From contig NZ_CP119424.1 in assembly GCF_029223585.1 (NCBI RefSeq), forward strand, positions 868,001 to 932,000: a DNA stretch of 64,000 nt, written 5' to 3'. Positions 57,915 to 63,553 of the stretch are shown piece after piece (position 1 is the stretch's first letter; every line of letters begins with the position of its first letter). This DNA is from Photobacterium sp. DA100. GTDB taxonomy: Bacteria > Pseudomonadota > Gammaproteobacteria > Enterobacterales > Vibrionaceae. Made by a program: the position numbers and the translations under genes. The notes under the pieces were generated by a model, which had not been told where the DNA came from, searched no databases, and saw only the letters and a program-made list of their open reading frames with translations.

Positions 57915-58733
57915 TCAGTTGAGTACGGATACGTAGCCCCGCTCTTCGATTAAGCGCTGACCTTGCTGTGAGGTAACATAGTCGACAAATTGCTTGGCGC
58001 TTTTTTTGACTTTCCTTTCTTTGTATAGCATCAAGAATGGGCGAGAAATTTGATATTTCCCTGATTCTAGATTCTCTAATGTTGGTGAGACACCTTCGAA
58101 ATCGAGTGCTTTGATCGAGTCATCAACGGAGCCAAGTGAAACATAGCCGACTGCATGCTTATTGCGCGACACCAAACTCTTAACTGTGCCGTTCGTGTTG
58201 ACGACCAGTACTTGCGGGTTGATATCCGAAACTGTCTGTCCTTCGATTTGTTGGGTAAGGCCTATAAACTCTTCGAAGGAAAACCGTGAGCCTGAAGCAT
58301 TTTCACGGCTAACGACTGCAATTTTCAAATCCGGACCACCGACTTCTTTCCAATTGGTGATTTCACCATGGTAAATTTTTTCGACCTGATTTCTGGTGAG
58401 GTTACTGACTGGGTTATCTTTGTGCACCACCAGGGCAATACCGTCATGGGCAATCGTGACAGTGATGATGTCTGGGTTGATCTCTTCTGGCTTGAGGTAG
58501 CGAGAACTCATGCCCAAATCAGCCACATTTCGTTTTACTGCAGTGATCCCTGCAGAGGAGCCGATTCCTTGCACGTCAATTTGTGTGTCTTTGTGTTCGG
58601 TGGAATAGGTTTCGGCCAATACTTCCACGATATGACTGGCAGATGTTGACCCCGTAATGGTCACGGTTTCGCTGGCTTGAACCGAAAGTGTCCAACTTGC
58701 TATGAGGGCGCACAAAGTGGCTCTGGTAAGCAT
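57915..58733 (-). CDS. PstS-family phosphate-binding protein, 272 aa
   Basis: The signal peptide ends SVQA. The phosphate-binding segments ITGSTSASHI, GIGSSAGITAVKRNVADLGMSSR and SRENASGSRFSFEEF are present. It belongs to the short PstS2-type group found alone in Vibrionaceae. The transporter genes pstC, pstA and pstB and phoU are not next to it. It may work with a system encoded elsewhere or act as a phosphate scavenger or sensor. The start has a GGAGA ribosome site. Confidence 0.88.
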   Translation of the reverse strand: MLTRATLCALIASWTLSVQASETVTITGSTSASHIVEVLAETYSTEHKDTQIDVQGIGSSAGITAVKRNVADLGMSSRYLKPEEINPDIITVTIAHDGIALVVHKDNPVSNLTRNQVEKIYHGEITNWKEVGGPDLKIAVVSRENASGSRFSFEEFIGLTQQIEGQTVSDINPQVLVVNTNGTVKSLVSRNKHAVGYVSLGSVDDSIKALDFEGVSPTLENLESGKYQISRPFLMLYKERKVKKSAKQFVDYVTSQQGQRLIEERGYVSVLN

Positions 58734-59279: not shown

Positions 59280-60935
59280 ATGCTGACAATGGCAAGAAGA
59301 GCGCAGCCGAATAAAGCGCTAGTTTCTGAAAGGATTCAGAAATTAATTAAAGCGTTATCTAATGGTGTTTATGAACGCGAAGAAACCATAAAGTTATGTC
59401 TTCTTGCTGCACTTGCTGGCGAGAGTGTGTTTCTACTTGGCCCTCCAGGAATTGCAAAAAGCTTGATCGCTAAGCGCTTGATTCAAGCTTTCGATAACAG
59501 CCAGTTTTTTGATTATCTGATGACCCGTTTTTCTACTCCTGAAGAAGTGTTTGGGCCTCTTTCAATCCAGGAGCTGAAAGACAACGGAAAATATGTGCGC
59601 TTGGTTGATGGTTACCTGCCGACTGCGCAAGTTGTTTTTCTCGATGAAATCTGGAAGGCCGGCCCGGCCATTCTCAATACGCTGTTGACCGTGGTGAATG
59701 AGCGTACATTCAAAAATGGCCAAGATGTCCTCCCTGTCCCTATGCGTCTTCTAATTACGGCATCAAATGAATTACCTGAAGAGGACAGCGGGCTTGAGGC
59801 CTTGTATGACAGGATGCTGGTGAGGGTGTTTGTTAACCGTATTCAAGAAAAGCAAAACTTCAAAGCGATGCTGATGGGGGAAGGGCCTAGCATTCAGGAT
59901 TTAGAGCCTGGCCTTGCGATTACCGATGAAGAGTACGAAGACTGGCAGTCACATATCGAGGATATCAAGCTATCTGAGGATATTTTCGAGAAAGTATATC
60001 AGCTCAAAACTATGATTGAGCAGCGTGCGGAAGGTGTCGAAAGTGTTGATGAGCACGAAAGCGAATTGTATATCTCTGATCGCCGGTGGAAAAAGTCGGT
60101 TCGTTTGTTAAAAGCCAGTGCTTTCTATAATGGCCGCGATGCTATTAATCCGCTGGATTTACTGTTGTTGCAAGACTGTATGTGGCACAGCCCGGAGTCA
60201 CGCCATGTGATTAGGGAAATTATCAGTGATTTTGCGATTGAGAAAGCATTCAACCAGGAGTCGGCGCAAATCAGTGCGGCCGATGCCCAAAATATCATTG
60301 ATGAGGTCAACTCGGAAATTGCCAATGAGTTGGCCGTCAACTTCAGTCGTGAAACCATGATGCGCAAAGAGTGGTTCAAATACGATTTCAGTGGCGCACG
60401 CCGATATACGGTGAATCACAATTCACGCATGATCAAGCTTGTTATGTTGCAACAAAATCCATCGGTTTCCGAGCAGGAGAACGGTGATGGCCGTTGGGTC
60501 TATGTTGATGGTGATGACTTTGAGAAAAAGATCAAAACCGGTCAATGTGACATCTATGGCTTTGTCAACAAGAATGCTCACCTTTGCCGGCTTCAGTTTG
60601 AAGTCGACGCCCAGCAGCGTTTGGTGATCAAAGATATCGCTAATCGCTCTGTGTTGGTGGGGATTGCCGGTGACAACGGAATTTCTCCGGAGCAGCAAGC
60701 CCACTGGGTCGCTACGGCGGAAAAGGCGTCTTCCAAAGTGCTTGATGCCGAGCATAGCCTGAAAGTTTCCCGCAGCAGCTTCCATGGGGCATTACCCCAC
60801 AACTTTATCGACCCGCAATTACCTGAGCGTATAGAGCAGAGTTTATCGCAAGCGACAGGATCGGTGCATGATCTGAAAGTGATGGTTGATAAAAGTGTAT
60901 TCCGTATTAGTCATTTGACTGAATACTTTGCTTAG
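59280..60935 (+). CDS. ravA: MoxR-type AAA+ ATPase RavA, 551 aa
   Basis: The AAA+ domain includes Walker A GPPGIAKS (54-61), Walker B VVFLDE (118-123) and sensor region LITASNELPEEDSGLEALYDRMLVRV. A long C-terminal part includes the discontinuous triple-helical and LARA-like regions of RavA. In E. coli RavA binds lysine decarboxylase LdcI and works with ViaA on respiratory complexes and in aminoglycoside sensitivity. No ldcI is present here. It is immediately followed by viaA (14-bp gap), as in E. coli. Confidence 0.94.
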   Translation: MLTMARRAQPNKALVSERIQKLIKALSNGVYEREETIKLCLLAALAGESVFLLGPPGIAKSLIAKRLIQAFDNSQFFDYLMTRFSTPEEVFGPLSIQELKDNGKYVRLVDGYLPTAQVVFLDEIWKAGPAILNTLLTVVNERTFKNGQDVLPVPMRLLITASNELPEEDSGLEALYDRMLVRVFVNRIQEKQNFKAMLMGEGPSIQDLEPGLAITDEEYEDWQSHIEDIKLSEDIFEKVYQLKTMIEQRAEGVESVDEHESELYISDRRWKKSVRLLKASAFYNGRDAINPLDLLLLQDCMWHSPESRHVIREIISDFAIEKAFNQESAQISAADAQNIIDEVNSEIANELAVNFSRETMMRKEWFKYDFSGARRYTVNHNSRMIKLVMLQQNPSVSEQENGDGRWVYVDGDDFEKKIKTGQCDIYGFVNKNAHLCRLQFEVDAQQRLVIKDIANRSVLVGIAGDNGISPEQQAHWVATAEKASSKVLDAEHSLKVSRSSFHGALPHNFIDPQLPERIEQSLSQATGSVHDLKVMVDKSVFRISHLTEYFA

Positions 60936-60949
60936 CGGGAGTGTAAGTT

Positions 60950-62398
60950 ATGCCGGTTTCTGAAGGTCTAAATCTTGCGATGATGCTATCGGAGTCCGGT
61001 ATCATTGATAACGCGGTGCAGGAATTGATGCTGCATAAGCAGTTAATTATTGCAGCCGAATCTAACCCTGGCATCAAGTCTGCGATGAAAAAGCAGATCA
61101 TGAAGTGGCGGGGCCAGGTACAAAAGCGAATTACCAATGTCAGTGTAGAAGAGCGGTTTCATCAGGAAATAGAGCTCTATCAGCAGGCATGCAATTGGCA
61201 AGCGGATCAATTTATTGAAAATGTTGATGATGTGGTTAAGCAGTTGGAAGGACATTCAGCATTCTATTTTAAAGCTAAGACGTTGCTGGAGCGCGACCAC
61301 CAGAAACATAATCCGATGTTCCAAAGTTATTTCTGTAGCCAGTGGCATAAGTATCTCACATTGGCACTGACTGAAGCTCAGCAAATTGAGTTGGAGCAGC
61401 ACAAAGAAAAGTTGTTAGCAGATCTATATCAGCGTATCGAAACCATGCAGCATATGGAGGCGGTAACAGAAGCTGGGGATGAGAAGAAAGCAGGGCGGTT
61501 GTGGGATATGGCCAAGGCTAAATTGACCAAAACCGATGTCAGTACCCTCAAAAATATGGCTCAGTTTTTAAAGAAAAATAGCGGCTTGAAAGAGATAGCT
61601 GAGAAGCTTGGCCGAATGGCGAATGAGGTTGATGATCCCAACAAAGAGCGGGTTCGAGCTGAAGATCTGAAAATGGTTGAGGAGCAAAGTGACAACGTTA
61701 CTGATGATATAGTGGGTATCCACGAAAGTGATGATCTCTCCAAGCTGCTGCCGAACGAAGCGATGTTCTTGGCCTATCCTGAGCTGGAAGTTGTTTTTTA
61801 TAAGCACTTGGTCGATAAGCGTTTGCTCAACTACAAGATGCAAGGTGCCCAGCGTAAGCTGCGCCGGGTGAAGGCATATAAACGCCAGACCAAGCAGGTT
61901 GAACAAGAAAAAGGGCCATTCATTGTATGTATTGATGCATCTGGCTCGATGAATGGATTTCCAGAGCAATGTGCCAAGGCGTTGGCCTATGGCTTGATGC
62001 AAATTGCTTTGGCTGAAGATAGAGAGTGCTACGTCATTATGTTCTCGACGCAGCAAATAACCTACGAGCTGACCAAGCAAGATGGCTTGAGCGAGGTTTT
62101 GAATTTTCTCTCCTATTCCTTTCACGGAGGCACGGATTTGGGGCCTGTTCTAGATCAGTCGATCGAGCTGATGTTGAGTGAAAAGTACAAAAATGCAGAT
62201 TTGATTGTGTTATCGGACTTTATCGCCCCATCCCAGCCTGATGAGATGATGAAGCGCATTGCGAAACTCAAAGAGAATAGGAACCGCTTCCACGCCGTCA
62301 ATTTATCGAAATACGGTAACCCTGAATTGATGACGGTCTTTGACCACTGCTGGTCTTATCATCCGTCAAAATTGGGCCGGCTTTTTAAGTGGAAGTAA
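60950..62398 (+). CDS. viaA: VWA-domain protein ViaA, 482 aa
   Basis: The N-terminal half is helical. The von Willebrand A domain starts near residue 320 with the metal-binding MIDAS motif DASGSMNG and continues with the GGTDLGPVL loop and VLSDFIAPSQP, which supply the remaining MIDAS contacts. ViaA stimulates the RavA ATPase. The family-specific end YGNPELMTVFDHCWSYHP is present. Confidence 0.94.
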   Translation: MPVSEGLNLAMMLSESGIIDNAVQELMLHKQLIIAAESNPGIKSAMKKQIMKWRGQVQKRITNVSVEERFHQEIELYQQACNWQADQFIENVDDVVKQLEGHSAFYFKAKTLLERDHQKHNPMFQSYFCSQWHKYLTLALTEAQQIELEQHKEKLLADLYQRIETMQHMEAVTEAGDEKKAGRLWDMAKAKLTKTDVSTLKNMAQFLKKNSGLKEIAEKLGRMANEVDDPNKERVRAEDLKMVEEQSDNVTDDIVGIHESDDLSKLLPNEAMFLAYPELEVVFYKHLVDKRLLNYKMQGAQRKLRRVKAYKRQTKQVEQEKGPFIVCIDASGSMNGFPEQCAKALAYGLMQIALAEDRECYVIMFSTQQITYELTKQDGLSEVLNFLSYSFHGGTDLGPVLDQSIELMLSEKYKNADLIVLSDFIAPSQPDEMMKRIAKLKENRNRFHAVNLSKYGNPELMTVFDHCWSYHPSKLGRLFKWK

Positions 62399-62435: not shown

Positions 62436-62460
62436 AGCGCTCTTACGAGCGCTTTTTTTT
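62436..62460. terminator. Terminator after viaA
   Basis: AGCGCTC and GAGCGCT form a 7-bp stem with a 4-base loop and eight T residues on the right. It also overlaps the stop of the convergent gene. Confidence 0.9.
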
Positions 62461-63553
62461 AATGTTCGGCAAAGTACTCGCTGAGAGCGTGACGCCAGCC
62501 TGGACTCTTTCGTATTCTTAATAAGGCTCGGTTCAATTCTTCACGATAAGGGCTGTTGTTTTCGATGACCAAGCCATAATTTTGTTTTTCGAATTGGTAA
62601 GGCAACACCGAGAGTGTTTGATAGTCTCCTTTTTCTTTTCCCTTTTTGATTAAATATTTCAAAACTGCATCGTCGGCGACAATAGCTTCCACTTGGCCAC
62701 TATCCAAGGCTGTGAGTAACTCATCGATATTTTGGTAGGTACGGTGAACAATGCTGTGGCTAGTCAGAAAGAGAGAGGAGGTTGATTTTGACTTTGCTCC
62801 CACGGTGATATTTGCCAAGTCATTGGGACCTTTGATGTCGCTGCTCAGGAGGCCGAGAGTAAATGTACTGGCGAGAATGGCGGTGACACTGGCAATGAAA
62901 AAAGTGGTAAATATGGCGAGGAATACAGTCAAAATACGACCTGTCAGGGTTTTAAATTCGAAGTAGTTAAAGGGGCCTTTTGTAATAAATAATAGCCCGA
63001 GTATAAAACCTTCAATCATCTGGGCTTTGTTCGACCGCATTGAATAAAGTTTATCGTTAACCTTGTGTTCTAGTAAGTAATAGAAGCCGCCAACAAGGCT
63101 GGCAACAATACAGATGAAGCCTAGGACAAGAAGCAGTTTTCTATTGGTTATGATGTTCTTGATGGTCGACAGATGACCTTGTTGCTTAACAGCTATAGCA
63201 AGGTGGGTTTCATAAAACGAGTGTGAGAAATCGAGTATTTCTTCACGCTCGGGTGTTATGGAGATACACGACACGCCGATATTGAGTTTATTGTTACTGA
63301 CATTATTCAGCAGCTCACCTAGCTCATGATGGCTGTATTCGAAATTCAGATTCAGCTCGGCCGCAATTTGTTCCCATAGAAAAATACTCAGGCCTATCGG
63401 AGTTTCTGTTTCACTTTCAATGACAAAAGGAGGGCAATGATAAGTACCAACGCTGACTGATATTTTGTCGGAGGCAAAAGTCGGCAGGGTGACAGCAATA
63501 AGACTACAAAAAAACAGCCACAGAGATAACACAGGGTGACAAACTGCTTGCAT
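62459..63553 (-). CDS. Prokaryotic ionotropic glutamate receptor-like channel, 364 aa
   Basis: A signal peptide (cleaved near TFAS) is followed by ligand-binding lobe S1 (about 30-130). S1 contains the family stretch ISITPEREEILDFSHSFYE, whose Arg103 corresponds to the arginine that binds the ligand carboxylate. M1 spans about 139-161. A pore region (about 178-206) and M2 (about 207-236, FFIASVTAILASTF) follow. Lobe S2 (about 240-362) contains VADDAV. This S1-M1-P-M2-S2 order is that of GluR0-type receptors, and differs from soluble amino acid binding proteins, which lack the inserted membrane segment. Where GluR0 has a potassium-type filter, this protein has TKGPFNYFEFKTLTGR, which lacks GYG. 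Ligand and ion preference are unknown. Confidence 0.85.
   Translation of the reverse strand: MQAVCHPVLSLWLFFCSLIAVTLPTFASDKISVSVGTYHCPPFVIESETETPIGLSIFLWEQIAAELNLNFEYSHHELGELLNNVSNNKLNIGVSCISITPEREEILDFSHSFYETHLAIAVKQQGHLSTIKNIITNRKLLLVLGFICIVASLVGGFYYLLEHKVNDKLYSMRSNKAQMIEGFILGLLFITKGPFNYFEFKTLTGRILTVFLAIFTTFFIASVTAILASTFTLGLLSSDIKGPNDLANITVGAKSKSTSSLFLTSHSIVHRTYQNIDELLTALDSGQVEAIVADDAVLKYLIKKGKEKGDYQTLSVLPYQFEKQNYGLVIENNSPYREELNRALLRIRKSPGWRHALSEYFAEH

Follow-up and report, generated by a model that had tools for sequence, protein, structure and literature searches.

A Glutamate Receptor-Type Channel Candidate of Photobacterium sp. DA100 with a Conserved Basic Loop in Place of the K+ Filter

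Introduction

The gene at 62459..63553 on the minus strand of the window, that is, of the whole 64,000-nucleotide stretch of Photobacterium sp. DA100 that was analysed (contig NZ_CP119424.1, positions 868,001 to 932,000), raises the question of what a bacterial protein with the layout of the ionotropic glutamate receptors (iGluRs) may do when a different loop stands where the K+ filter would sit. The nearest known systems are GluR0 of Synechocystis (slr1257) and the Nostoc punctiforme receptor core (PDB 1ii5 and 2pyy). GluR0 has its lobes outside and transports K+ in E. coli, a deletion mutant shrinks faster after KCl upshock, and the authors of that work regard their data as the first direct evidence of a role of a prokaryotic receptor in ionic stress (PMC13099474). 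In the literature surveyed, this K+-type receptor is the only prokaryotic one with a reported physiological role (PMC13099474). A previous survey covered 22 putative prokaryotic channels, of which 12 have a K+ filter; the P region of the other 10 was not recognised, and these receptors without K+ filter were named Group 2 (Ger 2010, PMC2950845).

The initial annotation of the locus proposed a glutamate receptor-like channel with a divergent pore and, as a consequence, either a different ion selectivity or a pure sensor that no longer conducts. The analysis described here makes it reasonably probable that the gene encodes a self-contained, amino-acid-gated, homomeric iGluR-type channel that is not K+-selective and has little divalent permeability.

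Organization of the Gene and the Protein

The features of the receptor gene are the following, in the order of the encoded protein:

62459..63553, minus strand: iGluR-like receptor-channel gene, 364 aa (open reading frame; PF00497 and PF00060)
63470..63553, minus strand: signal peptide, aa 1-28 (predicted from the sequence; in the model, helix at 7-21 and low confidence at 23-28)
63179..63460, minus strand: S1 ligand-binding lobe, aa 32-125 (Pfam, PDB sequence and structure matches, conservation)
63068..63142, minus strand: M1 helix, aa 138-162 (AlphaFold2 monomer model)
62981..63031, minus strand: pore helix, aa 175-191 (AlphaFold2 monomer model)
62963..62980, minus strand: filter-equivalent loop KGPFNY, aa 192-197 (alignments, profile match, conservation)
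62864..62947, minus strand: M2 inner helix, aa 203-230 (AlphaFold2 model; aligned to AMPA M3)
62867..62890, minus strand: gate motif SVTAILAS, aa 222-229, counterpart of SYTANLAA (conservation, AMPA profile match)
62468..62845, minus strand: S2 ligand-binding lobe, aa 237-362 (Pfam, PDB sequence and structure matches, conservation)

The open reading frame is complete at the coordinates given initially, and the assignment of a glutamate receptor-like channel with a divergent pore to it is in agreement with the Pfam domains and with an AlphaFold2 monomer model (pLDDT 82.2, pTM 0.67). In particular, the binding domain SBP_bac_3 (aa 35-362) is split by Lig_chan (PF00060, aa 148-251), which scores 33.3 bits against a cut-off of 30.8, and Lig_chan-Glu_bd falls narrowly below its own cut-off (28.7 versus 30). 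The order of the parts is signal peptide, S1, M1, pore helix and loop, M2 and S2; a glutamate-type binding domain is interrupted by two transmembrane helices and a P-loop, the latter taken from the monomer model, in which the pore helix is followed by a loop at 192-202, as expected for a re-entrant pore. M2 is the equivalent of the eukaryotic M3 and carries the counterpart of the SYTANLAA motif (named in PMC3483616). The M4 helix and the amino-terminal domain of eukaryotic receptors have no place in an open reading frame that runs from signal peptide and S1 to S2. Kinship with two-component or ABC proteins finds no sign in Pfam, which detects in the receptor no ABC permease, kinase, cytoplasmic signalling or further domain; moreover, an ABC solute-binding protein would have an unbroken binding domain and a permease partner, whereas here the domain is split and no adjacent gene is recurrent. 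In its own 6.0-Mb genome this gene is the only whole-protein match and the only PF00060 match.

Ligand-Binding Lobes and a Clade-Specific Cysteine Pair

In the structure search, GluR0 ligand-binding cores top the best 50 matches listed and, within these, glutamine-binding proteins match the lobes nearly as well. By sequence, the Nostoc punctiforme core 2pyy is the best PDB match (E 2.7e-25), ahead of ABC glutamine-binding proteins and NMDA receptors; the channel segment searched alone gives a PDB match at E 0.48 only. The GluR0-like topology first proposed is therefore borne out by the structure matches together with Pfam and the monomer model. The residues of interest in the lobes are:

63245-63247, minus strand: R103 in S1
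62672-62674, minus strand: D294 in S2
63434-63436, minus strand: C40, S1 lobe
63266-63268, minus strand: C96, S1 lobe

Homologues were drawn from searches with 328, 458 and 373 matches, 120 being listed from each, and make up a wider set of 221 distinct proteins, the window protein included. The ligand arginine Arg103, said at the outset to be retained, and Asp294 are each kept in 120/120 homologues listed and in 213/221 proteins of the wider set; in the latter, Arg103 is replaced by another residue in 8 proteins, and the 8 exceptions at Asp294 comprise 6 Glu, 1 Ser and 1 gap. The protein has, in this way, the conserved S1 Arg and S2 Asp by which prokaryotic receptors are recognised (Ger 2010, PMC2950845).

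Cys40 and Cys96 occur together in all 28 family rows of the tree described below, and neither is present in any of the 24 other prokaryotic receptors; in the wider set, Cys40 is found in 206/206 rows bearing a letter there and Cys96 in 220/220. Both residues presumably lie next to the ligand pocket, a placement based on the ligand contacts of glutamine-binding proteins. We infer a Cys40-Cys96 disulfide, and redox control of the receptor through this pair is possible.

The Pore Loop and Its Register

The pore region contains TKGPFNYFEFKTLTGR, in which GYG is absent, and the statement that the K+ filter is missing holds: KGPFNY stands in place of TVGYG. Two alignments, one of 52 sequences and one of channel segments from 16 of these (of 25 segments available), concur in setting Lys192-Gly-Pro-Phe-Asn-Tyr197 over Thr-Val-Gly-Tyr-Gly-Asp, with Lys192 on the first Thr of TVGYG. 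Pro194 occupies the position of the first filter Gly in 221/221 proteins, so that none of them can carry TVGYG. The threonine that the initial annotation saw retained in the pore peptide is indeed there as Thr191, but it matches, by the alignments, the Thr before the filter and not the filter Thr. A profile match to AMPA receptors, built from the 16-segment alignment, sets the Lys192 column on the first Gln of FMQQGCD, which by its place within the peptide we take to be the Q/R site, and the Tyr197 column on the Asp four residues further; this match is gapped at position 196, and 196-197 is consequently the least certain part of the register. The Q/R site is named in PMC3483616 and PMC12226733, and the position four further on (+4) carries an acidic residue across metazoan receptors as well as in plant receptors and GluR0 (PMC12226733); at 197, the equivalent of +4, an acidic residue is found in 0/221 proteins.

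Far from being decayed, the pore loop ranks with the best conserved parts of the protein. Of the 120 homologues listed, 94 have Lys and 26 have Arg at position 192; Gly193, Pro194, Tyr197, Glu181 and Arg206 are invariant among them, as are Thr224, Ala225 and Leu227 in the gate motif. The entropy averages 0.53 bits at 179-207 and 0.84 at 208-236, compared with 1.31 in S1, 1.35 in S2 and 1.62 in M1. The 20-residue segment of lowest entropy in the mature protein is 184-203 (0.31 bits), the best one outside 170-236 reaching 0.48 bits; with segments of 29 residues, the pore stretch 181-209 (0.47) comes just behind the S1 stretch 95-123 (0.45).

A search from a Desulfogranum relative leads to a sister group with mostly SGPIRY. 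In the 221 proteins, Lys or Arg is present at 192 only in 123, at 196 only in 80, at both in 18 and at neither in 0, the first filter position (192) being basic in 141. Position 197 is Tyr in 207, Phe in 13 and Cys in 1, Glu199 is kept in 208/221, and Glu181 is present in 28/28 family rows versus 4/24 other receptors. These distributions suggest a compensation between basic 192 and basic 196; since the two traits change only 3 and 2 times on a tree built without the pore columns, and an independent-pairs test on them has no power, with no significance reachable, charge compensation is a suggestion only.

Clade and Distribution

The tree comprises 52 rows, a selection from the sequences in hand with pore columns included, and the 28 family rows make up one side of a branch with support 100/100 and a stem length of 1.96. 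The ten TVGYG rows do not form one group in this tree (3 changes), and other loops again occur in 14 rows, which indicates that non-K+ filters are not rare among prokaryotic receptors. Some of these receptors, e.g., L081, L092, L095 and L106, have the same layout and no K+ filter, with loops such as TQAD, VNGGFEER, TMGGFEKE and TSGKMAARK, and lie on branches apart from the clade. L106, L113, L114 and L115 form a separate group on a long branch of their own; their TSG[KR]-type loops, followed by more Lys/Arg, are likewise rich in basic residues.

PF00060 scores above its cut-off in at least 22 of 398 genomes sampled from the phylum of the window, with several loop types among them, and in at least 44 of 121 Vibrionaceae genomes; both tallies are lower bounds because some clade members miss the cut-off of 30.8, namely Desulfogranum (30.5) and two Shewanellaceae copies (26.8 and 24.9). 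The 69 named loci belong mainly to Photobacterium, Vibrio, Aliivibrio and Moritella, and more rarely to two Ferrimonas, Desulfosediminicola, Desulfogranum, a Desulfosarcina MAG, an alphaproteobacterial MAG and a Shewanellaceae MAG; the Desulfogranum-seeded search adds Ruegeria to the hosts. The Shewanellaceae MAG has two tandem diverged receptor copies (L077, 6517-7740 and 7809-9017), both with TKGPFNY, and a heteromer of the two is possible.

Relation to Known Receptors

The general kind of this receptor is already known, since Group 2 was described in 2010: the topology, a P region that is not of the K+ type and the absence of an ABC domain are common to both, the likeness being one of description (PMC2950845). 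The main text of that paper, Results included, does not mention the KGPFNY motif, a basic filter residue or the Cys pair, its alignments being placed in Data S4 (PMC2950845). The basic loop at the Q/R site and the clade-specific Cys pair are new here and mark a distinct variant; no account of the clade's pore was found in the literature covered, to which subscription journals are mostly external. Two Group 2 members, YP_204476.1 and YP_132561.1, presumably come from Vibrio fischeri and Photobacterium profundum and may be orthologues.

GluR0, taken here from its published motif and the cores, has TXVGYG (PMC3483616) and K+ activity (PMC13099474), whereas the present receptor has KGPFNY, lacks the acidic +4 residue and has Cys40 and Cys96 in addition. 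The edited AMPA receptor GluA2(R) is similar in the basic residue in the Q/R-site register and in the TA-x-L-A gate motif; it differs in that the bacterial protein has no amino-terminal domain, M4 or +4 Asp, and in that its basic residue is genome-encoded and would be carried by all subunits of a homomer.

Proposed Mechanism and Alternative Readings

In the proposed mechanism, the periplasmic S1-S2 clamshell would close on an α-amino acid through Arg103 and Asp294, and this closure, acting through the gate helix M2, would pull open a tetrameric inverted pore. The general scheme is in line with the behaviour of GluR0 (PMC13099474). With [KR]-G-P-F-N-Y (in the sister group mostly S-G-P-I-R-Y) standing where T/V/G/Y/G/D would be, basic residues would form a ring close to or at the Q/R site, and the acidic +4 ring would be gone. 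The opened path would most likely be non-K+-selective and of low conductance, passing few divalents and perhaps some anions, and amino-acid binding would be converted into a shift of membrane potential or the movement of small ions. A path of this kind is favoured by the data on GluA2, in which Arg at the Q/R site cuts conductance and Ca2+ permeability (PMC6754398).

Among the alternatives, a non-conducting receptor, whose pore module would be a structural coupler signalling conformationally to an unlinked partner, is unlikely, although the lack of a K+ filter agrees with it, four basic side chains could block the narrow loop if the protein is a tetramer, and edited AMPA homomers barely conduct (GluA2(R) on its own, with no auxiliary subunits, has about 300 fS; PMC6754398). 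On the contrary, the pore loop and the gate motif belong to the most conserved stretches, no cytoplasmic signalling domain was found by Pfam and no adjacent gene recurs; the pure sensor role considered initially is, on the conservation of the loop, the less favoured of the two options.

It is also doubtful that the protein is a ligand-gated anion-selective channel, in which the basic ring and the missing acidic +4 ring would flip the preference for cations. Such a flip would suit a residue 192 or 196 that is basic in 221/221 proteins with no acidic 197, as well as the PCl/PCs of 0.14 of GluA2(R) without auxiliary subunits (PMC6754398); however, Glu199 may offset the charge in 208/221, the independent changes on the tree are few and Cl- flux is negligible in GluA2(R) with gamma-2, an analogy by which a basic Q/R-site residue alone would not make an anion channel (PMC6754398).

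A GluR0-like K+-selective channel with an unusual filter is very improbable: the overall topology is shared and the best scorers with the clade profile outside the clade carry TVGYG (L089, L085, L083 and L093), but Pro is invariably at the first filter Gly and the first filter position is Lys/Arg in most of the proteins (141/221). An ordinary ABC-type solute-binding protein with unrelated membrane segments hardly deserves consideration since, despite relatives annotated as substrate-binding proteins and lobes matched almost equally by glutamine-binding proteins, PF00060 splits the binding domain above cut-off, the profile aligns to the AMPA pore and gate helix, and neither a permease domain nor a recurrent adjacent gene is present.

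The amino-acid-gated, non-K+-selective channel would have its main interest in a largely marine clade with an invariably basic loop where the K+ filter would sit. It would offer a compact, genetically tractable and probably homomeric model for the differences between iGluR and K+ pores, in which a basic Q/R-site residue could be studied free of RNA editing, auxiliary subunits and heteromers. A bolder and less probable version, put forward tentatively, is a clade with a genome-encoded reversed-charge pore that is amino-acid-gated and either anion-permeable or nearly divalent-blind, with Cys40-Cys96 perhaps making the gating redox-sensitive.

Genomic Neighbourhood

The surroundings of the gene in the window include:

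59280..62398, plus strand: ravA and viaA, convergent neighbours outside the receptor (context only)
62436..62453, plus strand: terminator-like stem-loop on the viaA strand, between viaA and the receptor gene

The stem-loop is weak evidence alone, as terminator-like sites number 3, compared with an average of 1.5 in shuffled sequences. Neighbours were scored in 68 of the 69 loci and in the window (in L068 a longer overlapping ORF displaced the gene; some loci end beside it). viaA lies downstream of the receptor gene in 31/68 scored loci. All 31 are of Photobacterium; in the loci of Vibrio, Aliivibrio, Moritella, Ferrimonas and other hosts, viaA never takes this place and the neighbours vary. 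A functional link between the receptor and ravA-viaA was for this reason rejected. No same-strand neighbour family within 150 bp occurs in more than 2 of the 68 scored loci, and the family cluster 68 is found on the same strand 157-221 bp upstream in 4 Vibrio loci (L049, L050, L054 and L065). Because no same-strand neighbour is recurrent, the receptor protein most likely works alone, and its gene is probably monocistronic.

Vibrionaceae have many methyl-accepting chemotaxis proteins (MCPs) per genome. A cluster of MCPs is found a few genes off the receptor in 10/69 loci (L046, L048, L050, L053, L058, L062, L063, L069, L077 and L080), possibly by chance; the cluster is apparently mixed, its L046 member being Cache-type and the sequence start that represents the cluster resembling the PAS type. 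The RavA-like MoxR ATPase of the window (59280-60935, 551 aa) reaches 501.7 bits where the equivalog cut-off is 681; the partner ViaA exceeds its own cut-off. Divergent from ravA is a gene for a PstS-family phosphate-binding protein (57915-58733, minus strand), a family present in 27/70 stretches, the window included.
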